DNA from: Lachnospiraceae bacterium
GTDB taxonomy: Bacteria; Bacillota_A; Clostridia; Lachnospirales; Lachnospiraceae
DNA length: 26,527 nt
Direction: 5' to 3'
Assembly (NCBI GenBank): GCA_017430765.1
Contig: JAFRMI010000064.1
Coordinates: 1-26,527 of the forward strand
Positions 5,003 to 24,124 of this stretch are shown here, piece after piece. Below the pieces are notes generated by a model that was not told the origin of the DNA, ran no database searches, and worked only from the letters and a program-made list of their open reading frames with translations. How positions within the stretch are numbered: position 1 is the stretch's first letter; each line of letters opens with the position of its first letter. The position numbers and the translations under genes were made by a program.

Positions 5003-6013
5003 ATGGATTCCGGTGAAGGAAAGAAGAGCGGAAAAGGGTATTTCAGGAAAGCGGTGATCGTGTCGCTTTGTCTTTGCGCGCTGCTTCTGCTTGGGACGGC
5101 CGGGTATGCCTTATTATACAGGAACGAAGACGTGAGCGACTCCCGGAGCGGCCAAAGCGAAGAGGAGAGCGTCTCGTCTGCCCCTGCCGTTTCATCGGAA
5201 GAAAGCGCCTCTTCGGGCGAGGAAGAACCCGAAGAAAGCTTCGCGGTCGAGATTGGCGTGCCGGAAGAGACGCCGACACCGAAGCCCTATCCGGATCTTA
5301 TAGAGGACGGGGAACCTCCTTTCGAAGTGGACTTTGAGGCGATGTACCGCATCAATCCGGATATCATCGGGTGGCTCTATGTCGATGCGATGCCGTCGAT
5401 CGATTATCCGATTCTGCAGTCGTCCGACAATGATTACTATCTTCATCACAGTCCGGAGAAAGAGACGACGATCGACGGGTCCATCTTTGCGGATTATCTC
5501 AATTACCCCGATTTTGCGGATCCGAATACGCTTCTCTACGGCCACAATATGCGCAGCGGAGCGATGTTCGGGAGCCTTAAGTTCCTGAACGATCAGGAGA
5601 AGTACGACGCGGATCCCTATTTTTGGATCATTACCCCGGAGGGCAGTTACCGCTACAAGATTTTTTCCATGTTCTACACGCAGGTGAACTCGGATGTTTA
5701 TCTGCTTTACAGCTATAACGACGAAGCCTTTTATGAGTGGCTTCTTCTCATGCAGGCGCAGTCCGAGGTGGAGAATGATGTGCCGCTCACTCCGTACGAC
5801 AAAGTTGTGTTTATGTCAACCTGCACGTCCGACTCCACGAAGCGGTTCGTCGTATTCGGCAAATGCGTATCGAGCAAAAAACCGGAGGAACTGTTTAACC
5901 GGGAGACCGGCCGCGCCTGGGGGGATTCCGGTCCTCCCCTTCCGGAGCTTCCGGGCGGCAGCGACGGGGTTTCCCTCTCGGAGATCGGGCTGCATACGCC
6001 GCTGGATGGCTGA
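5003..6013 (+). CDS. srtB: Class B sortase (membrane-anchored transpeptidase)
   Basis: The 336-aa protein has a basic N-terminus and one transmembrane segment (about residues 17-38, AVIVSLCLCALLLLGTAGYA). A Ser/Glu/Pro-rich linker follows (about 45-100), then a class B sortase domain (about 110-290). Visible active-site residues are His181 in YGHNM, Cys274 in MSTCTS and Arg281 in TKRFVVFG. NPDIIGWLYV and IDYPILQ are typical of this class. The C-terminal 45 residues are a low-complexity tail. Sortases cleave a sorting motif and join surface proteins to the cell wall or to each other. No gene with a sorting signal adjoins it. GGAGA precedes the ATG; an overlapping ATG four bases upstream is out of frame. 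The symbol follows the class only. Confidence 0.92.
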   Translation: MDSGEGKKSGKGYFRKAVIVSLCLCALLLLGTAGYALLYRNEDVSDSRSGQSEEESVSSAPAVSSEESASSGEEEPEESFAVEIGVPEETPTPKPYPDLIEDGEPPFEVDFEAMYRINPDIIGWLYVDAMPSIDYPILQSSDNDYYLHHSPEKETTIDGSIFADYLNYPDFADPNTLLYGHNMRSGAMFGSLKFLNDQEKYDADPYFWIITPEGSYRYKIFSMFYTQVNSDVYLLYSYNDEAFYEWLLLMQAQSEVENDVPLTPYDKVVFMSTCTSDSTKRFVVFGKCVSSKKPEELFNRETGRAWGDSGPPLPELPGGSDGVSLSEIGLHTPLDG

Positions 6014-7338: not shown

Positions 7339-7367
7339 TGCGTGTTACCTCATTATGCATTATACTG
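7339..7367 (+). promoter_or_regulatory. Promoter of the secreted transglutaminase-like gene
   Basis: TTGCGT (7339-7344), a 17-base spacer and TATACT (7362-7367) predict transcription from about 7374. This is downstream of the ATG at 7355, so that upstream start cannot be used from this promoter. The ATG at 7454 is favoured. Confidence 0.7.
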
Positions 7368-7453
7368 TTCTTAACAACAAAGAAAATGTGAAAAACAGAA
7401 GCAGGAGACCGGAAGGCGTCCCGTCCCGGGCCGGTCAGGAAGGAGCGGATGGC

Positions 7454-9049
7454 ATGAAGAGAATATGGTTGCGAATCGGTGCTGCATTTGCCGGACTTTT
7501 TGCTGCTGCTGCGATCGGCCTGTCCCACCCGTCAGCTGTCAGCGCCGCCAGTTACGGGTCAGCGGCCAATGCGACGGAGCTGAATCCCAGAAACTACGGT
7601 ACCTGTGCCGCCTCACTCAGGGATGCGATGGTGAAAAGAGATACCGCGGTCCGGATCTTCGTAAAGGTTCCCTACTCTGATTACGGGAATAATAAACTGG
7701 CGAGGAGCATTCTTGACCGGGCGATGGAAGAAAACTATGCCGGGAACGCGGGAGACTACCTCCTGTATTCCAGCAAAAGCTTCAGCTACGGGTTTGGGCA
7801 GGCCCTTAATTTCGATTTCAGCGGATCCGAGCTGGCGATTATCACCACACTGGAATATGATATCGGGTACCGGGACGACGCGTCGAAGGAATCGCAGACG
7901 GCGAGCGGCGTCAACTCGAGACTGAAGAGTCTGAATCTGTCCGGCAAGTCCGATTACGACAGGGTATCTTCCATCTACAATTATATTACTACGAACGTCA
8001 CATACGACACGAAGGCTGCCACAACGAGCAACGGGGATACGGTTTACAAAACCGCATGGACAGCCTACGGCGCATACTGCAACAAGAAAGCGGTCTGCCA
8101 GGGCTACGCGCTCCTTTTCTATAAGATGTGCAATCTGGCAGGCGTACGGGCCCGCATCGTCGACGGGGACGCCAGAGGTGCGCGGGGCAATGAGGGCCAC
8201 GCATGGAATATGGTCCGGATCGGCAACTCCTGGTACTACTGTGATCCCACGTGGGACGCTGCTTATAAGCAGGCCGGCCAGCCGTATCAGTATTTCCTGA
8301 AGAATACGTCTGACTTCAAGGATCACTATCTCGATACTTCCTCCACCACCGGCGGCAACGGGACGAGAAATAAAGCCATTTTGTCCGCCTGCCCGCTCTC
8401 TTCGAAGAGCTACGGCCAGGGCGGCTCGAAATACAAAGTAACCGTCTCGGGCGGAAAGATCAACGGAGGCAGCTCGAGCGGAAGCTTTAAAGCCGGCACA
8501 GTCATTGAAATTAAGGCATCCTCACCTCCGCTTGCGGGACAGGTGTTCTCGAGATGGAGCGGCACGGCTGCTTACGCGAGCGGTTCTGCGACAAGCTCCA
8601 CGGTGAAAGTTAAGGTATCCGGCGATATCAGCCTGAAAGCTACCTACGCCTACAGGGATGCCAATGTGAAAGCGGCCAACTACAAGGTGAGTTCCCTCTC
8701 CGCTCCCGGGAAGAAGAATTCGCTGAAAGCCAACAAGAACAGCAAGAAGGACAATACGTCCATTGTCCTTGAAAAATCCGCATCGGCGCCGCGCTTTAAG
8801 CTGTCGAAGGCGGGAAGCGGCTATTACTACCTGATGAACGTAAAGAGTAAGAAATATCTGAGCCTCAAGGGATCGAGTGCGGTGCAGGGCAAGAAGGGAA
8901 CGTCGACGAGCCGGTGGAGAATCGTTAAGGACGGAAAAGCGTACCGGCTGATCAACAAGAACGGGAAAGCTCTCACGGTCAGCGGCTCAACGGTCAGAGC
9001 GGGAGCAGATTCCGGAAGCAAGAAACAGAAATTCAAACTGCCGAAATAA
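7454..9049 (+). CDS. Secreted transglutaminase-like protein with InlB-type and ricin-like C-terminal regions
   Basis: The 531-aa protein starts with a signal peptide (residues 1-31, cleavage likely after AVSA). A transglutaminase-like/papain-fold core spans about 165-290. Its apparent triad is Cys215 (AVCQGYA), His249 (GHAWNMV) and Asp264 (CDPTWD). At about 325-400 a segment ending FSRWSG...VSGDISLKATY resembles divergent InlB B-repeat domains. The last 120 residues (YYYLMNVKSKKYLSLKG, then WRIVKDGKAYRLINKNGKALTV) look like a ricin-type beta-trefoil fragment, which could bind carbohydrate. No LPXTG-like signal is seen, so it is probably released or held non-covalently. Activity could be proteolytic or crosslinking; the substrate is unknown. 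AGGAG at 7441-7445 lies eight bases before the chosen ATG. Confidence 0.88.
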   Translation: MKRIWLRIGAAFAGLFAAAAIGLSHPSAVSAASYGSAANATELNPRNYGTCAASLRDAMVKRDTAVRIFVKVPYSDYGNNKLARSILDRAMEENYAGNAGDYLLYSSKSFSYGFGQALNFDFSGSELAIITTLEYDIGYRDDASKESQTASGVNSRLKSLNLSGKSDYDRVSSIYNYITTNVTYDTKAATTSNGDTVYKTAWTAYGAYCNKKAVCQGYALLFYKMCNLAGVRARIVDGDARGARGNEGHAWNMVRIGNSWYYCDPTWDAAYKQAGQPYQYFLKNTSDFKDHYLDTSSTTGGNGTRNKAILSACPLSSKSYGQGGSKYKVTVSGGKINGGSSSGSFKAGTVIEIKASSPPLAGQVFSRWSGTAAYASGSATSSTVKVKVSGDISLKATYAYRDANVKAANYKVSSLSAPGKKNSLKANKNSKKDNTSIVLEKSASAPRFKLSKAGSGYYYLMNVKSKKYLSLKGSSAVQGKKGTSTSRWRIVKDGKAYRLINKNGKALTVSGSTVRAGADSGSKKQKFKLPK

Positions 9050-13578: not shown

Positions 13579-14427
13579 ATGAGCCATGCGGATAAGCTGT
13601 TTGTCGCGATGTGCCGCGACATACTTGAAAACGGAACCGACACGAGGGGCGAGGCCGTCCGCCCGCACTGGGAGGACGGGAGTCCCGCCTACACGGTGAA
13701 GCAGTTCGGGGTTGTGAACCGCTACGATCTCCGGAAGGAATTTCCGGCGCTGACGCTCCGGAAGACGGCCCTGAAAAGCGCCATGGACGAGATTCTGTGG
13801 ATCTGGCAGAAGAAATCCGCGAATATCCATGACCTGAAATCCCATATCTGGGACGAGTGGGCGGATGCGGAAGGCTCCATCGGCAAGGCGTACGGATATC
13901 AGATGGGCGTCAAACACCGCTATAAGGAAGGCATGTTTGACCAGACCGACAGGGTGCTTTATGATCTGGCCCACAATCCCTTCAGCCGGCGGATTCTCAC
14001 CTCGATCTACAATCATCACGATCTGAGTGAGATGGCGCTCTATCCGTGTGCCTGGTCCGTCACGTTCAATGTGACGCAGCATATGGGAGATGAGAAGCTG
14101 ACGCTCAACGCGGTGCTCACGCAGCGGTCTCAGGATATTCTTGCGGCCAATAACTGGAATGTATGCCAGTACGCGATTCTGCTCATGATGTTCGCGCAGG
14201 TTTCGGATATGATTCCGGGTGAGCTCCTGCACTGTATCGCGGATGCACACATCTATGACCGCCATGTCCCGATCATCGAGGAGCTGATCACACGTGAACA
14301 GCATCCGGCCCCGAACGTGCGGCTGAATCCGGAGATCCGGAATTTCTATGATTTCACGACGGACGACCTGCTTGTCGAAAACTATGTGACAGGCGAGCAG
14401 ATCCGGAACATTCCGATCGCGGTGTAA
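13579..14427 (+). CDS. thyA: Thymidylate synthase
   Basis: The 282-aa ThyA-type enzyme methylates dUMP to dTMP using 5,10-methylene-THF, producing dihydrofolate. The nucleophile is Cys157 in LYPCAWS. The dUMP phosphate site is QRSQD (182-186), followed by NNWNVCQYA. The C-terminal end IPIAV gives the usual C-terminal closure residue. CAGGAG precedes the ATG. It lies 84 bases after malQ and 150 bases before folA. The folA enzyme regenerates THF from the dihydrofolate made here, so pairing the two genes makes metabolic sense. Confidence 0.97.
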   Translation: MSHADKLFVAMCRDILENGTDTRGEAVRPHWEDGSPAYTVKQFGVVNRYDLRKEFPALTLRKTALKSAMDEILWIWQKKSANIHDLKSHIWDEWADAEGSIGKAYGYQMGVKHRYKEGMFDQTDRVLYDLAHNPFSRRILTSIYNHHDLSEMALYPCAWSVTFNVTQHMGDEKLTLNAVLTQRSQDILAANNWNVCQYAILLMMFAQVSDMIPGELLHCIADAHIYDRHVPIIEELITREQHPAPNVRLNPEIRNFYDFTTDDLLVENYVTGEQIRNIPIAV

Positions 14428-14577
14428 ACCGCGAAAAAAAAGTCCCCCGTTTTTCGGATGCAGAGGCGCCGAATGCCCGCTTTCCGCGCTGCGGTGCCAG
14501 GCTCCGCGCGATGAAAGACGCAGGCGGGGATCCACGCAGCCGCGCGGCAATACTGAAAAGAAAGAAGAGATATAAAC

Positions 14578-15090
14578 ATGATGAAAGCGATTGTTGCGGT
14601 CGATCGGAACTGGGCGATCGGAAAAGACGGCTCCCTGCTCACCCGCATCCCGGCGGACCAGAGGTATTTCCGCGCGATGACGGAAGGAAGCGTTGTGATC
14701 ATGGGACGGAAGACGCTCGAGTCTTTCCCCGGAGGGAGGCCCCTGAAAAACCGCGTGAACATTGTGATCACGAGGAACCCGGACTACAGGCCGGACGGAG
14801 TGACTGTCGTCGGCAGTGTGGAGAAAGCGGCGCAGGAGGCTCTGCGGTATGCGGGAAGGGAAGTGTTCGTCATCGGCGGCGGTGAGATCTACCGGGAAAT
14901 GCTCCCATACTGTGACACCGCCTATGTCACAAAGATCGACTATTCCTATGACGCCGATACGACATTCCCGAATCTGGACGAATGCTCCGACTGGGAGATC
15001 GCGGAAGAAGGGGAGGAGCAGACCTCTTTTGACCTGATCTTCACATTCGTGACCTACAGAAGAAAAAGCGGGGGGACAACAGGGAGGTAA
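14578..15090 (+). CDS. folA: Dihydrofolate reductase
   Basis: The 170-aa enzyme reduces dihydrofolate to THF with NADPH. Visible motifs are AVDRNWAIGKDG (residues 7-18), Asp27 in RIPADQRYF (the substrate-binding acid), VIMGRKTLESFPGGRPL (40-56) and VIGGGEIY (98-105), which contacts the cofactor. Two adjacent ATGs (14578 and 14581) are possible starts; AGAAGAG precedes them. The gene ends two bases before the ispG ATG. The 150 bases upstream hold short GC-rich stems but no clear promoter or terminator. Confidence 0.96.
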   Translation: MMKAIVAVDRNWAIGKDGSLLTRIPADQRYFRAMTEGSVVIMGRKTLESFPGGRPLKNRVNIVITRNPDYRPDGVTVVGSVEKAAQEALRYAGREVFVIGGGEIYREMLPYCDTAYVTKIDYSYDADTTFPNLDECSDWEIAEEGEEQTSFDLIFTFVTYRRKSGGTTGR

Positions 15091-15092
15091 CG

Positions 15093-16148
15093 ATGCTGTA
15101 CAGGGAGAAGACGAAAGAGATCCGGATCGGGGAACGCCGGATCGGCGGGGGCAACCCGATCGCGATCCAGTCGATGACCAACACGAAAACCGAAGACGCG
15201 GAGGCGACGATCGCGCAGATCCTCGCCCTGGAGAGCGCCGGGTGCGAGATTGTGCGCTGTACGGTCCCCACGATGGATGCGGCGCGCGCATTTTCCGAGA
15301 TCAAAAAAAGAATCCATATACCTCTTGTCGCGGACATCCATTTTGATTACCATCTCGCGATCGCCGCGATAGAGAACGGGGCGGATAAGATCCGCATCAA
15401 TCCCGGCAATATCGGCGGAGCGGACAGGATCCGGGAGGTGGTATCCTGCGCGAAGGAGCGGCAGGTTCCGATCAGGGTCGGCGTCAACTCCGGATCCCTT
15501 GAGAAGGAGAAGATCGAGAGGTACGGCCGCGTCACGGCGGAAGGCCTTGTGGAAAGTGCCATGGAGAAGGTGCATATGATCGAGGATGCGGGGTACGACA
15601 ATCTTGTCGTCAGTATCAAGTCCTCGGACGTCCTTATGAGCATCCGGGCCCATGAAAAGATTGCGGAACAGTGCCCCTATCCGCTTCATGTAGGGATCAC
15701 CGAGGCGGGAACCGCCTATTCCGGCAATGTGAAGTCCTCTGTCGGGATCGGGATTATCCTGTATGAAGGGATCGGGGATACAATCCGCGTCTCTCTCACG
15801 GAGGATCCGATCCTGGAAGTGCGGACGGCAAAACTCATTCTGAAGACGCTGGGACTTAGAAGAGGCGGCATAGAGGTGGTTTCCTGCCCGACCTGCGGCA
15901 GGACGGATATTGACATCATCGGCCTCGCCGCGAAAGTCGAGGAGATGGTGCAGGACATCCCGCTTGATCTCAAGGTTGCGGTGATGGGATGCGTTGTCAA
16001 CGGGCCTGGAGAAGCCCGGGAGGCGGATATCGGGATAGCCGGAGGGAAGCACGAGGGGCTGCTGTTCCGGCAGGGAGAAATTATCCGGAAAGTGCCGGAG
16101 GACCAGCTTCTTGCCGCGCTCCGGGACGAACTGATGAACTGGTGCTGA
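15093..16148 (+). CDS. ispG: 4-hydroxy-3-methylbut-2-en-1-yl diphosphate synthase
   Basis: The 351-aa iron-sulfur enzyme carries out the penultimate step of the MEP isoprenoid pathway, converting MEcPP to HMBPP. The N-terminal TIM-barrel part shows GNPIAIQSMTNT and ADIHFDYHLA. The 4Fe-4S ligands are Cys265 and Cys268 (CPTCGR) and Cys300, with Glu307 in CVVNGPGEA. All four are offset by five from their E. coli positions, so the domain is intact. GGGAGG overlaps the end of folA, and the start codon is two bases after its stop, which indicates co-transcription. polC follows after eight bases. Confidence 0.97.
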   Translation: MLYREKTKEIRIGERRIGGGNPIAIQSMTNTKTEDAEATIAQILALESAGCEIVRCTVPTMDAARAFSEIKKRIHIPLVADIHFDYHLAIAAIENGADKIRINPGNIGGADRIREVVSCAKERQVPIRVGVNSGSLEKEKIERYGRVTAEGLVESAMEKVHMIEDAGYDNLVVSIKSSDVLMSIRAHEKIAEQCPYPLHVGITEAGTAYSGNVKSSVGIGIILYEGIGDTIRVSLTEDPILEVRTAKLILKTLGLRRGGIEVVSCPTCGRTDIDIIGLAAKVEEMVQDIPLDLKVAVMGCVVNGPGEAREADIGIAGGKHEGLLFRQGEIIRKVPEDQLLAALRDELMNWC

Positions 16149-16156
16149 GAAAGCGT

Positions 16157-19100
16157 ATGAATGGAAAGATGATGCCGTTTTTTACGGTATTTCCGAACCT
16201 GATACTGGATGCTGAGATAGAAGGTCTGATGCAGTCTGTGACGGTGGAGCGGGTGACGGTCAATCCGGCCGGTAACCGGCTTCGCGTCTTTATGCTGTCT
16301 GAAAACTGGCTGAAGAAGGCATACATCTACCGGGTGGAGGAGTCGATCGCGAAGCAGATTTTCACCGACAGGGAGGTCGACGTCCACATTGTGGAGCGTT
16401 TCCACCTGTCTCCTTCCTATACGCCGGAACTTTTCTACGACAGTTACAAAGCGAGCATGCTGGAGGAGCTCAAAAGCGTAAACCCGCTGCTTTTCCAGTG
16501 CTTTCTCCGGTCAAATCTCACGTTTTCAAAAGACGGGATCAAGGCTTCCATCCCCGACACGCCCATCCGCGCGAAACGGAAAGAGGAACTGGCGGACTAT
16601 ATTGAAAAAGTCTTTACGGTCAGGGCCGGATTTCACGATCTCGACGTTGTCTGTGAGTATGTCAGAACAGACGCGGGAGCGGGAGAAGGGATCCGGGAGG
16701 AGGACAGACGGATCGCGGAGAAGGTACGGCAGGTTCTCCGCAGCAACGAAGACCGGAAGAGAACGCCGGAAGAGGAGAAAAAGCTTCCGAAAAAACAGGA
16801 ATCCCGGAAAAAATATACACTCACGAAGGATCCGACCCTGCTTTACGGCCGGAACTTTGACGGGGATCCGATTCCTCTGATCAATCTTACGGCGGACCCG
16901 GCCCCTGTGGTGATCCGCGGGGAAGTATACGGGACAGAGAGCCGGAAAACCAGGACCGGAAGAATTATATACACCGTCACACTGACGGATTATACGGACA
17001 GTATCCGAATGAAACTCTGGTTCGACGAAGAGGAGGAACCGGAGTACAATGCCGTGTTCCGGAAAGGGGAAGCGTTTCTGGTACAGGGACTTCTGGACTT
17101 TGATCCATTTGACAAGGAGTTTATGATCCGGAACGTGGGCGGGATTAAGAGGACTGCGCCGATCCGCACCGTCCGCGAGGACACCGCTCCTGTCAAGCGA
17201 GTCGAACTGCACTGCCATACGCAGATGTCCGATATGGACGCGGTCTCACCCGCTGCGGACATCATCAAACAGGCGTACCGGTTCGGTATGAACGCGGTTG
17301 CGATTACAGACCACGGCGTTGTCCAGGCCTTCCCCGAGGCAAAAAAAGCACTTGGCGGCAAGGGCGGGATCCCGAAAGACGCGGATATGAAGGTCATCTA
17401 CGGGATGGAAGCCTATCTCGTGGACGACATGAAGAATCTGGTGAGCGGGCCGCTTCTTGGGAGCATCCACGATCCCCTGGTCGTCTTTTCGACCGTTACG
17501 ACGGGGCAGAGCCCTCTGAAGCATTCGATCATCGAGATCGCCGCGGTAAAATTCGCGGAAGGACAGATCCGCGAGGAGTTTTCGACCCTCGTCGATCCCG
17601 GGAAGCCGATTTCCTTCTCCATGCAGACGGAGACCGGCATTACGGACGAAATGGTGTCAGGAAAGCCCGGGATCGCGGAAGCGCTGGCACAGTTTTCCGC
17701 TTTCGCGGGGGATCTTCCGCTTGCGGCGTACGATATTGACCAGGAGATGAATTTTCTTTACGCCGCTTCCGATACGTTCGGATCCCTGGCCGGAAACCGA
17801 ACGCTGATTGATATTCCGCAGATCGCGAGATACCTCGTGCCGGGGATCGGCAGAATCCGCTTTAAAACACTTGTGAAGCACCTCAAAGTGCCCTGCAGCG
17901 ACGATATGCGGGCTTATCCGAGGGCGAAGGCGATGGCATTCGTCCTCCGGCACCTGATCCGTGAGATGGACGCGGCGGAGATCCGCACGTTTGCGCAGCT
18001 CAATGAGAAGGGAGCGGTGTCCGGGGACCGGATCCGCAACCTGCGCTATTATCACGCGATTCTGCTTGCCGCCAACGAGACGGGAAGAAGGAATCTGTAT
18101 ACGCTGGTTTCAGAGTCGCATCTTCATTATTTTAAGCTGCGTCCCAGAATTCCGCGCAGTCTCCTTAACGCGCACCGCGAGGGGCTGATTCTCGGCAGCG
18201 CGTGTTCCGCGGGAGAACTCTACCAGGCCCTCCTTTCCGGAGCCTCGAAGAGCGAGATCGCACGGATTGTCGACTACTATGACTATCTGGAAATACAGCC
18301 GATCGCGAACAACGCGTACATGCTCTCCGATCCCGGGAGCGGCATCGCGGGCGAGGAGGACCTGCGTGAGATGAACAGGCGGATTGTCCGGCTCGGGGAG
18401 GAGTTCGGAAAGCCGGTCTGTGCGACCTGCGACGTCCATTTCCTCAATCCGGGAGACGCGATTTACCGCGCCATTATTCAGGCCGGGCACGGATACAAAG
18501 AGGAGGCAGGAGGACAGCCGCCTCTCTTTCTCCGCACGACGGACGAGATGCTCGCGGAGTTCAGCTATCTGGGGGAGCGGAAGGCCTACGAGGTGGTGGT
18601 GGAGAACACGAACCGCATCGCGGACCGGATTGAAAAGATCTCTCCGATCTACCCGGACAAGTGTCCGCCTTCCATCCCCAATTCAGAGAAGGATCTGGAG
18701 GAGATGTGCTACCGCACGGCGAAGGAGATGTACGGAGATCCTCTGCCGGAGATCGTCGAAAGCCGCCTTGGAAAAGAACTCGGGTCCATTATAAAAAACG
18801 GCTACGCGGTCATGTACATGATCGCGCAGAAGCTCGTGGAGAAATCCATGCAGGACGGATATCTCGTCGGTTCCAGGGGATCCGTCGGGAGTTCATTTGC
18901 CGCCACCATGTCGCACATTACGGAAGTGAATCCACTTCCGCCGCATTACAGGTGCCCGGTCTGCCGCTACAGTGAATTTGATTCGGAGGAGACGATCCTC
19001 GCCCATAAGGAGGGGCGCTGCGGATGCGACATGCCGGACAAGCGCTGTCCGGTCTGCGGGGAGATGCTCATGAAAGACGGCTTTGACATTCCGTTTGAGA

Positions 19101-20560
19101 CATTTCTTGGGTTCAAGGGAGACAAAGAGCCGGATATCGACCTCAATTTTTCCGGTGATGAGCAGGGGATCGCACAGGCTTACACGGAGGTGATCTTCGG
19201 GAAGGGGCAGACCTTCAAAGCCGGGACCATCGGAACCGTTGCGGAGAAAACCGCATACGGATATGCCCTCAAGTATTTCGAAGAGAAAAAGATTGAAAAG
19301 AGGCGCTGTGAGCTCGAGAGGCTGGCGGAAGGCTGCGTCGGTGTCCGCAGGACAACCGGACAGCACCCGGGCGGCGTTATTGTTCTGCCTAAAGGGATGG
19401 ACATCAACTGGTTTACACCGGTACAGCACCCGGCGAACGACACGTCGAGTCCCATTATAACCACGCACTTTGACTATCACTCCATCGACTCCAACCTCCT
19501 GAAACTGGATATTCTCGGACACGATGACCCGACCATTATCCGGATGCTGAAGGATCTGACGGGAGAGGACCCGATGCATGTCCCGCTCGATGACAAAGAC
19601 GTGCTGTCTCTCTTTACGGGAACGGAGGCTCTGGGAATCGCTCCGGGCGGCCTTCCGGATATCGATCTGGGGACGCTGGGAGTTCCCGAATTCGGAACCT
19701 CCTTTGTCATGGGGATGCTCCGCGATACAAAGCCGAAGACATTCTCGGAACTTATCCGGATCTCCGGTCTGTCACACGGAACGAATGTGTGGCTCGACAA
19801 CGCGCAGTATTTTATCAAAAACGGCGACTGTACGCTGGGAAGCGCGATCTGCACGCGTGACGATATCATGCTCAACCTGATCAACTGGGGCGTTGAGCCG
19901 GAACATTCCTTCAAAATCATGGAGGCGGTCCGGAAGGGGAAGGGGCTTACCTCGGATCAGGAGAAGGAAATGCGGGAGCACAATGTTCCGGACTGGTATA
20001 TTGAATCCTGCAAGCGGATCAAGTACATGTTTCCGAAGGCGCACGCGGCGGCGTATGTCATGAACGCGTTCCGCATCGCGTATTACAAGATCCACTACCC
20101 CCTTGCCTACTATGCGGCGATGTTCTCCATCCGTGTGAAGACATTCAACTACGAGAAGATGTGCCAGGGCCCGGAGAAGCTCGAGTACTGTGCGGAGGAA
20201 ATCCGCAGAAACCCGGAGCAGAGCGCGAAGGACGCGGAGGAACTTGACGACATGAAGATCGTGCGGGAGATGTACGCGCGGGGTTTTGCATTCGCAAAGA
20301 TCGACCTCATGCAGGCGGACGCGACACGGTGCCGCATCATCGGCGGACGCATTATGCCCCCGCTCAGTTCCATCAGCGGAATGGGGGAGACACAGGCGAA
20401 GGCGGTCTCCGCTGAGGCCGCAAAGGGACCGTTTTTATCAAAGGATGACTTTCGCGAGCGGACACATGTGTCCAAGACCATCATAGATCTTCTCGCGGAA
20501 CTTGGCATATTGGGAGATATCCCGGAGAGCAATCAGATATCTATTTTTGATATCGGCTGA
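16157..20560 (+). CDS. polC: DNA polymerase III PolC-type alpha subunit with degenerate exonuclease domain
   Basis: The 1467-aa replicative polymerase of Gram-positive type has an N-terminal domain and an OB fold (about 250-345). A PHP domain begins HCH (352-354) and contains TDHG (384-387); an exonuclease-like insertion follows (about 435-605). The second PHP part comes next, then a zinc finger (Cys933, Cys936, then CGCDMPDKRCPVCG). The polymerase core has catalytic Asp993 and Asp995 (PDIDLNFSGDEQ). The C-terminal region contains GQHPGG and KYMFPKAHAAAYV. The exonuclease fold is recognisable, but DIETTG is STVTTG (Ser445, Val447), the AHNxxFD motif is AYDIDQE, and HRAxxD is MRAYPR (Met584, Arg589). 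All five DEDDh catalytic residues are therefore replaced. I start at 16157, since the longer frame to 15989 lies inside ispG. Its ribosome binding site is weak. Confidence 0.96.
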   Translation: MNGKMMPFFTVFPNLILDAEIEGLMQSVTVERVTVNPAGNRLRVFMLSENWLKKAYIYRVEESIAKQIFTDREVDVHIVERFHLSPSYTPELFYDSYKASMLEELKSVNPLLFQCFLRSNLTFSKDGIKASIPDTPIRAKRKEELADYIEKVFTVRAGFHDLDVVCEYVRTDAGAGEGIREEDRRIAEKVRQVLRSNEDRKRTPEEEKKLPKKQESRKKYTLTKDPTLLYGRNFDGDPIPLINLTADPAPVVIRGEVYGTESRKTRTGRIIYTVTLTDYTDSIRMKLWFDEEEEPEYNAVFRKGEAFLVQGLLDFDPFDKEFMIRNVGGIKRTAPIRTVREDTAPVKRVELHCHTQMSDMDAVSPAADIIKQAYRFGMNAVAITDHGVVQAFPEAKKALGGKGGIPKDADMKVIYGMEAYLVDDMKNLVSGPLLGSIHDPLVVFSTVTTGQSPLKHSIIEIAAVKFAEGQIREEFSTLVDPGKPISFSMQTETGITDEMVSGKPGIAEALAQFSAFAGDLPLAAYDIDQEMNFLYAASDTFGSLAGNRTLIDIPQIARYLVPGIGRIRFKTLVKHLKVPCSDDMRAYPRAKAMAFVLRHLIREMDAAEIRTFAQLNEKGAVSGDRIRNLRYYHAILLAANETGRRNLYTLVSESHLHYFKLRPRIPRSLLNAHREGLILGSACSAGELYQALLSGASKSEIARIVDYYDYLEIQPIANNAYMLSDPGSGIAGEEDLREMNRRIVRLGEEFGKPVCATCDVHFLNPGDAIYRAIIQAGHGYKEEAGGQPPLFLRTTDEMLAEFSYLGERKAYEVVVENTNRIADRIEKISPIYPDKCPPSIPNSEKDLEEMCYRTAKEMYGDPLPEIVESRLGKELGSIIKNGYAVMYMIAQKLVEKSMQDGYLVGSRGSVGSSFAATMSHITEVNPLPPHYRCPVCRYSEFDSEETILAHKEGRCGCDMPDKRCPVCGEMLMKDGFDIPFETFLGFKGDKEPDIDLNFSGDEQGIAQAYTEVIFGKGQTFKAGTIGTVAEKTAYGYALKYFEEKKIEKRRCELERLAEGCVGVRRTTGQHPGGVIVLPKGMDINWFTPVQHPANDTSSPIITTHFDYHSIDSNLLKLDILGHDDPTIIRMLKDLTGEDPMHVPLDDKDVLSLFTGTEALGIAPGGLPDIDLGTLGVPEFGTSFVMGMLRDTKPKTFSELIRISGLSHGTNVWLDNAQYFIKNGDCTLGSAICTRDDIMLNLINWGVEPEHSFKIMEAVRKGKGLTSDQEKEMREHNVPDWYIESCKRIKYMFPKAHAAAYVMNAFRIAYYKIHYPLAYYAAMFSIRVKTFNYEKMCQGPEKLEYCAEEIRRNPEQSAKDAEELDDMKIVREMYARGFAFAKIDLMQADATRCRIIGGRIMPPLSSISGMGETQAKAVSAEAAKGPFLSKDDFRERTHVSKTIIDLLAELGILGDIPESNQISIFDIG

Positions 20561-20647: not shown

Positions 20648-23600
20648 ATGATCAGGATCAGAGAACAGGAAATACGGCTTGTCACGGTGCCGGGCAAGCA
20701 GGTGTTTGGCCGGCTTCATATAGAATCGGACGGAGGAGAACGCATCCGGGGGGAGTGCTATTCCAATCACTTCCGCATTGTCCCTGAGATGAGCACGTTC
20801 GCGGGAAGGGCTCTCTCCCTTCGCTTCGGCGCGGATGTGACCGGAATTCCGGACGGCGGAGCGATTGACGGCGGTCTGACCGTCGTGACCGAAGCGGGAG
20901 AATTCTTCATCCCGGTGCATGTATCTGTGGAGGAGACACGTCTTGAGACGTCCTACGGAGCAATCCGGACGCTGAGCGATTTTGCGGAGTATGCGCACAG
21001 CGACCCGGAGGAGGCGTTCCGCCTCATGAGAAGCGACCGCTTTGCGGAACTGATCCCGGAGGAGGATCATGCGCTCCGGGCACTCTGGAGAGGTTTTTCG
21101 AAACCTCCCGCGGCAATTACGGCCATGGAGGAATTTCTGGCGGGGGCCGGGCTGAAGGAACCGGTTGTGCTGCGGGCGGAGACGGATCACGCGGAGTTTT
21201 ATTCCCTCACGGATTCGTCGGAGGAACTTCTTACGATCCGCAGAAGCGGCTGGGGGAATTTCCTGATCACGGTGGAGACGGACGCCGACTTTATCGAACT
21301 TCCGCGGAAGCGGATCACGGATGCGGACTTCGTCGGCAGCGTATATGACCTTGCCTACAGGATCAATGCGCACCGGATCGGCAGCGGTGTGCGCCGCGGC
21401 GCGATCCGGCTGAAAAGCGCGGCGGGATCTTTTACGCTTCAGGTGACGGCTTCTCTCCGCGAGAAGGAGGCCGCCTCTTTCGAGCTTCCGGTTTTGAAGA
21501 ACCGCGCAGCCCTGTTAAAAGAACGCCTTCTCTATATGCTGGACCGGGAAGACCGGCGTTCTTATGCGGAACACTCGCTGGCCCTGCTTGAGGAGAGATA
21601 CGGGCTGACCAATGAGAATCTGACAGCCATGCGGCTCTATCAGGCTTACCTGCAGGAGCTGCTCGGGAAGAGAAAAGAAGCGGGGGCAATCCTCAGGGAA
21701 TTCCGGACGGACGGCTTTTCCCCGGAGGAGTATGAGGAGGAGACGGCATACCTGTATCTGACCGGTCTTCTCGGTATCGCGAAAGAGGACTCCGCCGGAA
21801 TATCCAAACGCGTGCGTACAAGATACGCGGAAGGGGACGCTTCCTACACGATGATGAAGCTCCTTTTTCTCACAAATCCGGATATCGGCCGCTATCCGAG
21901 GAGAAAGCGCCGCTACGAGGAGGAACTCTTCGAGGCGGGTGTCCGCAGCCCGCTCCTCTACGCGGAGGTGCTGCGGGATCTGAGGGACAATGACGCGCTT
22001 TTATCCGAGCTCACGGATCTGTCTCTTCAGGTGCTTCTCTTTGCTGCGAAGTGGGACCTTATGACAGAACCCCTCGCTCTCCGTGCCGCCTATCTCTCGG
22101 ACAGGGTGAGGGAGGCGTCGCCCGTACTCATCCGGATTCTCACATCCGCCTATGAGAAGTGGCAGAGCGATGGAATTCTCACGGCGATCGTCAAGGTTCT
22201 GATGAAGGAAGATCCGGGTGATCCCGCACATTTTCCGTGGTATGAGAGAGCTGTAGAGCGAAATCTCCGGATCCTCCGGCTGTACGAGTATTATATTGAG
22301 ACGATGCCGGAGAGCAGGAGGCAGGTCCTTCCTCTTCCTGTCAGAAAATATTTTATGTACAACAGCACCCTTCCCGAGCAGGGAATGGCGGATCTTTACG
22401 CGAATATCGTCCGGAACCGCTATGAGGATCCGGATACGTATGCGCGCTATAAGGAGAGGGCGGAGGTCTTCGCCTACCGGTCCCTGCGTGAAGGACGGCA
22501 GGGGGAAAGCTTTGCCGTTCTTTATCAGGAATTTGTGAAATCCCTCCCCGATGAGACGTCGGAAAACACCTACATTGACTGCGCTTTCATGCGGCGGGTT
22601 TACACCGAACACCCGGACATCAGGGCGGTCGCGGTTGTCCACGATGAACTCCTCGAAGACGAGACGGTTCCTCTGCTGCATGGCGCTGCCTGTGTCCGGA
22701 TCTTTACGGACTCCGCGCAGATCTTTTTCGTAAATGCAGCCGGTGAACGCATTCGTTCTTCCGTCGATTACAGCATGGTCCCTCTTATGGAGGAGGGAAG
22801 GGCCCGCAGGATCCTCGGAGGCTGTACGGCGGACCACGCCGGCCTGCGCCTCAGCCGCATTCTATCCATGGCGGCGGACACGGAGGATCACGAGGAGCTG
22901 CTGCGCCTTATGAAGGAAGTGGCCGCATCGCCTGTCTATACGGACAGTTTCCGCGATGAAGCGAGGCGGAGAATCCTGCACCTTGTTCTTACGGACTGGA
23001 ATCTCCGCTCTTTCAATCCGACGGAAGAGGAACTCTCCGCCTATGCCGCGGCGGACAAATCGGGACTTATCGAAGTCCTTCTTGATGCGGGGAGGGAAGA
23101 GGAAGCGTACAGGATCCTCCTTGAGAGGGGCACGGAGAATGTGGGCGCGGAGTGCCTGGTCCGCCTGGCCAGCCGGATGATTGCGGCGGCGGAAGGGGCT
23201 AAGGATGAGGAACTGACGGCTTTCTCGGAGCAGGTCTTCCGGGAAGGACTCTACGATGAACGGATGCTCATGTATCTGTCGGAGTGGTTTACGGGAAGCA
23301 TGGACGAGATGCTGGCGCTTCGGAGAGCGGCGGACTCGTTCTATGTGGATACCTTCGTTTTGGATGACAGAATCTTAAGAAGGGCTGTATTTTCAAACAG
23401 TCCGATATCGGAAGCGCCGGAAATTCTGCGCGACTACGTGCGCGCAGGCGGCCGGAAGAGTGTGATCCGGAGTTTTCTGACTTTCCATGCGGATACCTCT
23501 CTTGGACGGGACGGGAAGGTCGACCCGGTCATTGCGGCGGAGGCGGCGGAGGCGCTGGACAGCGGGGAACCGATTGACTTTGCGGTGAAGCTGATGCTTC

Positions 23601-24124
23601 TGAAATATTACTCCGAGAAGGGGAGCCTTACGGTACATGAGGAAGTACAGGTGGACCGTCTGCTCGAGGAGTGCGAAAAAAGGGGAATCCACATGATGTT
23701 CATGAAGAATCTCCCGGCCTCTTTTGTCAGCGCCTACCGGCTTCTGGACAAGGTATATATCGAGACGAGGGCGGAAGAAGGGGAGACGGTCTATCTTCGG
23801 TATTCCTTCGGGGATGACTGGAAGACGGAGATGCTGATCCCCAAATTCCGGACGCTCCTCACGAAGGAGTTCACGCTGTTCTACGGCGAGACTTTATCCT
23901 ACACCTTCATACGCGTGAAGGAGGGAGAGGAAACGGAATCCGACGTCCGGACGATCCGCTGCGGCAGCTTTGATGTGCTCGGGCTGAGCGCATTCCAGAG
24001 AATCAACCGGATGCTGAAGTTCCGGGCGGAGGGAGACGAAGAAAAACTCGCGGAGGAACTGCGCGAATATCTCGTCGCAAAACATCAAAGTGAGGTCTTG
24101 TTTCAACTGGAGGACATGAAGTGA
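20648..24124 (+). CDS. DUF5717-like large protein, first gene of a three-gene operon
   Basis: This 1158-aa protein resembles the uncharacterised DUF5717 family as I remember it from Lachnospiraceae. No signal peptide or membrane segment is visible, so it is probably cytoplasmic. The first 300 or so residues are beta-rich with repeated Ig-like strand patterns (for example VFGRLHIESDGGERIRGECY and FFIPVHVSVEETRLETSYG). Residues of about 310-980 are leucine- and alanine-rich helices with TPR-like spacing, suggesting an alpha-solenoid scaffold. The last 150 residues return to beta strands (YIETRAEEGETVYLRYSFGD) and end in a charged helix. Its stop overlaps the GTG of the next gene. No enzymatic motif was recognised, and the function is unknown. 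Its ribosome binding site is weak, and it may be read from polC. Confidence 0.8.
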   Translation: MIRIREQEIRLVTVPGKQVFGRLHIESDGGERIRGECYSNHFRIVPEMSTFAGRALSLRFGADVTGIPDGGAIDGGLTVVTEAGEFFIPVHVSVEETRLETSYGAIRTLSDFAEYAHSDPEEAFRLMRSDRFAELIPEEDHALRALWRGFSKPPAAITAMEEFLAGAGLKEPVVLRAETDHAEFYSLTDSSEELLTIRRSGWGNFLITVETDADFIELPRKRITDADFVGSVYDLAYRINAHRIGSGVRRGAIRLKSAAGSFTLQVTASLREKEAASFELPVLKNRAALLKERLLYMLDREDRRSYAEHSLALLEERYGLTNENLTAMRLYQAYLQELLGKRKEAGAILREFRTDGFSPEEYEEETAYLYLTGLLGIAKEDSAGISKRVRTRYAEGDASYTMMKLLFLTNPDIGRYPRRKRRYEEELFEAGVRSPLLYAEVLRDLRDNDALLSELTDLSLQVLLFAAKWDLMTEPLALRAAYLSDRVREASPVLIRILTSAYEKWQSDGILTAIVKVLMKEDPGDPAHFPWYERAVERNLRILRLYEYYIETMPESRRQVLPLPVRKYFMYNSTLPEQGMADLYANIVRNRYEDPDTYARYKERAEVFAYRSLREGRQGESFAVLYQEFVKSLPDETSENTYIDCAFMRRVYTEHPDIRAVAVVHDELLEDETVPLLHGAACVRIFTDSAQIFFVNAAGERIRSSVDYSMVPLMEEGRARRILGGCTADHAGLRLSRILSMAADTEDHEELLRLMKEVAASPVYTDSFRDEARRRILHLVLTDWNLRSFNPTEEELSAYAAADKSGLIEVLLDAGREEEAYRILLERGTENVGAECLVRLASRMIAAAEGAKDEELTAFSEQVFREGLYDERMLMYLSEWFTGSMDEMLALRRAADSFYVDTFVLDDRILRRAVFSNSPISEAPEILRDYVRAGGRKSVIRSFLTFHADTSLGRDGKVDPVIAAEAAEALDSGEPIDFAVKLMLLKYYSEKGSLTVHEEVQVDRLLEECEKRGIHMMFMKNLPASFVSAYRLLDKVYIETRAEEGETVYLRYSFGDDWKTEMLIPKFRTLLTKEFTLFYGETLSYTFIRVKEGEETESDVRTIRCGSFDVLGLSAFQRINRMLKFRAEGDEEKLAEELREYLVAKHQSEVLFQLEDMK

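Follow-up and report, generated by a model that had tools for sequence, protein, structure and literature searches.

The polC locus

The window, that is the whole 26,527 nt stretch of DNA analysed here, carries a polC gene on its forward strand (positions 16157–20560). The gene is a single open frame, from the ATG at 16157 to the stop at 20560, and encodes a 1467 aa PolC-type DNA polymerase III alpha subunit. NCBIfam names the protein PolC with 1574.6 bits (cut-off 873). Pfam finds the PolC N-terminal domain, the PHP domain, the inserted exonuclease, and the polymerase and finger domains; the match to the inserted exonuclease is weak (44 bits), and an OB match of 25.9 bits is slightly below the cut-off of 27. 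Pfam and NCBIfam together give the PolC domain set of N-terminal domain, OB, PHP with inserted exonuclease, polymerase core and helix-hairpin-helix. The catalytic polymerase aspartates D993 and D995 (19133–19141, forward strand) were located by alignment. They are present in 67 of 67 rows that cover these positions in the clade of related PolCs described below.

Upstream of polC on the forward strand is ispG (15093–16148; TIGR00612, 418 bits, cut-off 280). Downstream, on the same strand, is a gene for a DUF5717 protein (20648–24124), a conserved neighbour by neighbourhood comparison. ispG is upstream of polC in 25 of the 27 clade loci with enough upstream DNA, and the gene order lon-malQ-thyA-folA-ispG-polC-DUF5717-DUF5716 is conserved, whole or in part, across clade loci. 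The clade shares the ispG-polC order with sister PolCs, as it is also found at the non-clade loci L023, L024, L028 and L036. There is one PolC locus per clade genome (30 genomes searched), and this only PolC seen sits at the ordinary locus with its polymerase aspartates kept.

In 21 of the 25 clade loci that have ispG, thyA is found upstream of ispG-polC, mostly with folA in between (window positions 13579–16148). At four loci outside the clade whose flanks are long (L024, L028, L033 and L036), it was not seen. Nucleotide synthesis genes are thus linked to the replicase gene in the clade loci. Farther upstream in the window is a transglutaminase-like protein with ricin-type lectin and InlB-like repeat domains (7355–9049), with a sortase nearby (5003–6013).

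Loss of the DEDDh site

The DnaQ-like exonuclease domain of the window protein spans approximately residues 440–606 (17474–17974, forward strand), as delimited by Pfam, phmmer and alignment. The original prediction, that all five catalytic residues are replaced, is borne out to the residue. In Exo I (17489–17497, forward strand), Asp is replaced by Ser445 and Glu by Val447, while the TTG that follows is kept. Exo II (17729–17746, forward strand), normally HNxxFD, reads Y525-D-I-D-Q-E530. In Exo III (17906–17923, forward strand), His is replaced by Met584 and Asp by Arg589. The codons of the five residues start at 17489, 17495, 17744, 17906 and 17921, inside the segment 17477–17925 to which the change had been assigned. 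The domain is still alignable with PolC exonucleases, as had been claimed. By phmmer it aligns gap-free at all three motifs with 9QPC, a solved PolC structure whose exonuclease was inactivated by its authors; S445 and V447 stand opposite both Exo I positions, where the 9QPC construct has Ala.

The PolC alignment has 115 rows (50 proteins and 65 loci, some rows repeating one gene), of which 70 belong to the clade and 45 do not. At the five catalytic positions the window has S-V-E-M-R, against D-E-D-H-D in 44 of 45 non-clade rows; in the remaining non-clade row, L033, the exonuclease domain is deleted. Within the clade, the Exo I Asp is retained in 4 of 70 rows and the Exo III position is Arg in 66. 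The Exo II position still has a carboxylate, as Glu, in 56. Judged from the alignment, the carboxylates that remain in the clade do not make a two-metal site, and activity at this DnaQ-type (DEDDh) site is hardly to be expected. The window protein falls outside the active DnaQ-type (DEDDh) exonucleases, as it has S445, V447, E530, M584 and R589 in place of the four carboxylates and the histidine of the metal site.

Distribution and origin of the variant

The exonuclease region was searched against 5.8 billion proteins and matched 49 of them at E ≤ 1e-10, which makes 50 with the query added. Thirty-nine of these are related PolCs without the catalytic set and 11 are intact. Among the 39 clade proteins, 36 keep none of the five catalytic residues and 3 keep the first Asp alone. 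A scan of genome contigs gave 37 loci, titled Lachnospiraceae, Clostridiales or Clostridia bacterium and mostly from metagenome assemblies, of which 32 were assigned to the clade. RUG names, which we take to denote rumen uncultured genomes, are borne by 17 of these 32.

Thirty further PolC loci came from a sample of 299 Lachnospiraceae genomes. L025 and L037, which stop short of the exonuclease domain, were left out, so that 65 loci entered the alignment. Of these, 33 are intact and 32 are not, the latter consisting of 31 clade rows and L033. Since L038 repeats L003, there are 30 distinct clade loci; L032 covers the exonuclease domain partly. Only two genomes of the family sample were recognised as clade members among the matches listed, the genome at the centre of the sample (G001) and G007; the exonuclease status was read for the 29 other genomes that gave loci.

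A tree that leaves out the exonuclease columns (718 columns, with 35 rows from the clade and 35 others) unites the rows with the dead site in one clade, with an SH-aLRT of 100 and one change of state. L033 is placed among intact relatives, and its exonuclease deletion is a separate loss. The genome that carries L033 (G331) has a standalone DnaQ of approximately 240–260 aa (L116). Clade PolCs diverge to as little as 61% identity. These results support a loss of the DEDDh site that is ancestral to a whole deep clade of uncultured Lachnospiraceae, many of them from the rumen.

No clade contig from the scan is longer than 516,916 bases, so that none is a complete chromosome. Clade genome sizes are 1.8–4.2 Mb. 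The clade loci are GC-rich, with a mean of 0.556 (30 loci) compared with 0.451 for 33 live Lachnospiraceae PolC loci.

The retained exonuclease domain

Structure prediction, another check proposed with the original prediction, recovered a DnaQ fold; the metal site was judged from the alignment. The AlphaFold2 model of the window domain has a mean pLDDT of 91.7. Its best solved matches in Foldseek are the PolC structures 9QRN and 9QPC (TM 0.86), followed by DnaQ proteins, with E. coli epsilon at approximately 0.7. The RNase H-like (DnaQ-like) exonuclease fold is thus predicted to be kept.

The domain changes faster in the clade than in intact relatives. At a core distance of 0.12–0.20, the exonuclease domain differs at 0.477 of sites in clade pairs (939 pairs) and at 0.341 in intact pairs (170 pairs), the pairs being non-independent. 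On a fixed tree, the branch length of the exonuclease, taken relative to that of the core, comes to 4.48 for the clade and 2.08 for intact PolCs, a factor of 2.15. The stem branch of the clade is long for the exonuclease (1.25) and also for OB (1.02), compared with 0.18 for the core, so that the exonuclease was not alone in this burst of change. In three independent close clade pairs, the dN/dS of the domain is 0.072, 0.050 and 0.125 against 0.021, 0.011 and 0.042 for the core. The model and these three sequence pairs show a dead exonuclease domain that is relaxed yet under purifying selection, that is, a maintained pseudo-exonuclease.

Particular residues are held as well. In the TTG turn, T448 and T449 are kept in 67 of 69 covering rows and G450 in 69 of 69. 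Residues new to the clade, V447, E492, Y525, C580 and R589, are near-invariant (at least 90% of 62 rows). A salt bridge between E530 and R589 was considered and is not claimed. All 4 rows without R589 are also without E530, but these are close relatives, and 10 rows are without E530 alone.

PHP sites of PolC and DnaE1

The original prediction also held that the PHP histidines remain along with the polymerase aspartates. This is so, and all nine PHP ligands are present. The first half of the PHP domain (17204–17410, forward strand) keeps H352, H354, D361, H386 and E418, assigned by motif order, and the second half (18053–18439, forward strand) keeps H633, C683, D759 and H761. Of 70 clade rows, 69 have the complete set HHDHEHCDH; in L032, five of the positions fall in a run of X. 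All nine ligands are also present in 44 of 45 non-clade PolC rows, so that the clade PHP site is inherited and not new. DnaE1 was located in 25 of the 30 clade genomes, in some of them in pieces; of the other five, one has a short fragment only and 4 gave no DnaE1. The window is without dnaE1. In the DnaE1 of clade relatives each PHP ligand, assigned by motif, is present in at least 24 of 25 loci.

A 2026 survey gives the active PHP exonuclease motif of C-family polymerases as HHDHEH[C/H]DH (PMC12926913), and by sequence both the window PolC and the DnaE1 of its relatives carry it. The Geobacillus kaustophilus PolC, in which one PHP ligand is changed, is without PHP exonuclease activity (PMC5636811); by phmmer, this protein has Asn at the place of window D759. 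The claim that the window replicase is without intrinsic 3′–5′ proofreading thus holds as far as the DEDDh site goes, which can hardly be active. As a statement on the whole enzyme it is too strong, since the PHP site is complete in PolC and DnaE1.

Extra constraint on the PHP halves was considered as a sign of compensation and is not claimed: their tree rates relative to the polymerase core are 0.80 and 1.10 times those of live relatives. In pairwise distances both halves are lower in the 0.12–0.20 core-distance bin, and the first half is not lower in the 0.03–0.12 bin.

Fidelity of replication in the clade

Replicase proofreading is taken as near-essential for bacterial genomes. The clade appears to have been without DEDDh proofreading by PolC since before its PolCs diverged to 61% identity, and errors are probably corrected by a route other than the DEDDh domain of PolC.

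The explanation that we favour, and on balance consider probable as a whole, is a single loss of the PolC DEDDh site, a kept pseudo-exonuclease, and fidelity provided by PHP sites together with MutS/MutL. The exonuclease was inactivated once, in the common ancestor of the deep uncultured Lachnospiraceae clade, as the tree shows. The domain was then retained as a folded pseudo-exonuclease under purifying selection, as the model and the three sequence pairs show. Proofreading would most likely be done by the zinc-dependent exonuclease sites of the PHP domains of PolC, of its partner DnaE1, or of both, where the residues are present. MutS and MutL would back this up; the genes are above cut-off in 29 of 30 (MutS1) and 28 of 30 (MutL) clade genomes, a search that had been suggested at the outset. 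As PHP is complete in PolC and DnaE1 and MutS/MutL are present, PHP proofreading plus mismatch repair is, from gene content and residues, the likeliest fidelity system of the clade. The pseudo-exonuclease would most likely serve as an architectural or 3′-end-binding part.

A more specific role for the dead domain is conceivable, although we give it a low chance. It may be a metal-free 3′-end receptor that holds a frayed or mismatched primer end uncut and then hands it over to the polymerase's own PHP zinc site. This reading is suggested by the kept TTG turn and by R589 and E530, which occupy two former metal-ligand positions. Recognition would then take place in a former nuclease and cutting in a different nuclease domain. 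In cryo-EM, an E. faecium PolC whose exonuclease had been inactivated in the laboratory holds a single-stranded DNA stretch of three nucleotides in the exonuclease domain (PMC12592400).

Several points count against PHP proofreading with mismatch repair. The PHP site is inherited, and from the sequence comparisons its halves seem to be under no consistent extra constraint. In B. subtilis, the combination of a mutant PolC exonuclease with a mutant MutL raised mutation about 6000-fold (PMC11890065). Also, a common KapD-like nuclease could act in trans.

The last point leads to the first alternative, that a separate DEDDh exonuclease proofreads in trans, which we regard as improbable. Its best candidate is a KapD/ERI1-like DEDDh nuclease of approximately 320 aa, which 25 of the 30 clade genomes carry; nine of these proteins (L068–L076) were inspected by eye and keep a DEDDh set. 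However, of 34 Lachnospiraceae genomes outside the clade, at least 12 have it too (both counts by profile range and frame length), and it is thus not a clade gain. The one protein tested against the KapD profile gave 66 bits (cut-off 169) and would by this score be a distant KapD relative only. The gene content of the clade was read from the 30 clade genomes reached through PolC loci. A search of these and 34 other genomes with PF00929 alone, in assemblies that may be incomplete, found no clade-wide replacement DnaQ, so that the standalone DnaQ-like protein suggested as compensation was not seen as a clade trait. A further DEDDh domain is found in 7 of 30 clade genomes (one a fragment) and in about 20 of 34 others (19 of 33 with live PolC), counted by profile range and frame length with the non-clade types unsorted. 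Three of the clade proteins (L077, L078 and L111, in three genomes) are Cas2e-DnaQ fusions (TIGR01873), and the others (L109, L110, L112 and L113–L115) are, by reading, unlike these fusions. Judging by these profile counts, DnaQ proteins seem to be less numerous in the clade than outside it, which speaks against proofreading in trans.

It is also unlikely, in our estimate, that the clade simply tolerates weaker proofreading and a higher mutation rate, with MutS/MutL holding it down. The lost DEDDh site, the PF00929 search that found no gained DnaQ, and the presence of mismatch repair would fit. The complete PHP sites argue against it, and the GC content and genome sizes given above show no sign of decay, although neither gauges rate.

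A very unlikely alternative is that DnaE1 is the main replicase and PolC an accessory polymerase, so that proofreading by PolC would be dispensable. PolC and DnaE1 occur together in Clostridia (PMC12926913), and a DnaE1 with intact PHP is present in the 25 clade genomes noted above, in some of them in pieces. Against this, the PolC polymerase core is strongly constrained, with a dN/dS of 0.011–0.042 in the three pairs. Most clade PolCs also end in a clamp motif of the QxSLF type.

A mistake in sequencing or assembly, or a phage polymerase present as contamination, would fit with relatives that are metagenome assemblies by title, but these relatives already exclude it: the loss is shared by 39 proteins and 30 distinct loci that come from many assemblies. 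The gene order from lon to DUF5716 is conserved, whole or in part, and phage records match only below 60% identity.

The clade makes PHP-domain proofreading by PolC directly testable. PHP exonuclease activity in clade PolC or DnaE1 would mean that a PolC system can be sustained by PHP-only proofreading; its absence from both would mean that a lineage with little replicative proofreading exists.

Comparison with known systems

The clade PolCs resemble PolCs with an active exonuclease (B. subtilis, E. faecium and sister Lachnospiraceae) in domain order, PHP and polymerase sites, exonuclease fold and position in the PHP loop. They differ in the site, with all five DEDDh residues replaced in the window, and in the rate of change of the exonuclease domain, which is about double when measured against the core.

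Proteins that lack the exonuclease insertion make up 6% of PolCs, all but one in Clostridia and Negativicutes (PMC3919608). They share with the clade the loss of DnaQ-type proofreading and the keeping of the PHP domain. Unlike these, the clade has the domain present, predicted to fold and under selection, with the site dead. The window protein is thus not a PolC of the insertion-less type, as the domain is found by Pfam and in the model.

In Pol epsilon, the inactivated module forms a half of the polymerase that has no catalytic role, and a working exonuclease is present elsewhere in the enzyme. This inactivated polymerase-exonuclease module is described in PMC2669801, and DnaQ-like domains inactivated in many Pol I orthologs, PolA2 (APEX) and PolB2 in PMC12926913. 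The clade is like all of these in retaining a vestigial nuclease domain within a polymerase. It is unlike Pol I, PolA2 and PolB2, which are repair or translesion enzymes, in that the domain is the proofreading domain of a bacterial replicase. The M. tuberculosis DnaE1, which proofreads by PHP, has the same nine-ligand PHP site and no working DEDDh within the polymerase (PMC5636811). The clade enzyme differs in being a PolC, with a PHP activity that is predicted from residues.

According to the 2026 survey, which covers more than 3000 species that have complete genomes, it is PHP and not DnaQ that is inactivated in Pol III alpha subunits (PMC12926913). The clade is a counterexample to this generalisation, which rests on complete genomes only. 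As no clade contig is a complete chromosome, the clade may have been missed by a survey of this kind. Titles and the starts of abstracts gave no recognisable report of an inactivated but retained PolC exonuclease, an absence that is not proof. The clade PolC is a well-supported real variant for which no earlier report was found.

Other PolC forms in Clostridia

As a class-wide test for an intact Exo III, a DNA pattern for HHRAx(D/E)DA matched only 178 of 391 genomes and was considered too narrow. A profile made from live exonuclease domains took its place; with it, 56 of the 391 genomes gave no match and 41 a match weaker than 1e-47. The best E-value per genome can come from other DnaQ proteins, and these figures thus give no clean class-wide frequency. 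Genomes inspected were 20 of the 56 without a match, 29 of the 41 weak ones, and 11 borderline ones. They yielded 44 PolC-like proteins, of which 30 (1062–1360 aa) show no exonuclease motif, 6 show one or more, and 8 carry a long insert. The class sample agrees with PMC3919608 on insertion-less PolCs.

The eight long PolCs (L133–L137, L173, L175 and L176, in G475, G569, G516, G615, G695, G455, G409 and G385) have frames of 1530–1705 aa. They carry in the PHP loop an insert of approximately 280–320 aa with an exonuclease-like start (e.g. VAIKTTG...AASKYRLKGY) and no DEDDh set. These are possibly a second, independent retained pseudo-exonuclease. A profile comparison was weak (probability 10%, E-value = 0.003), the best hmmsearch E-value was 0.005, and the AlphaFold model was poor (pLDDT 45.9). 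Two further PolCs of approximately 1330 aa (L164 and L166) have at the exonuclease position an insert of approximately 140–150 aa without recognisable motifs, perhaps a remnant of the domain.
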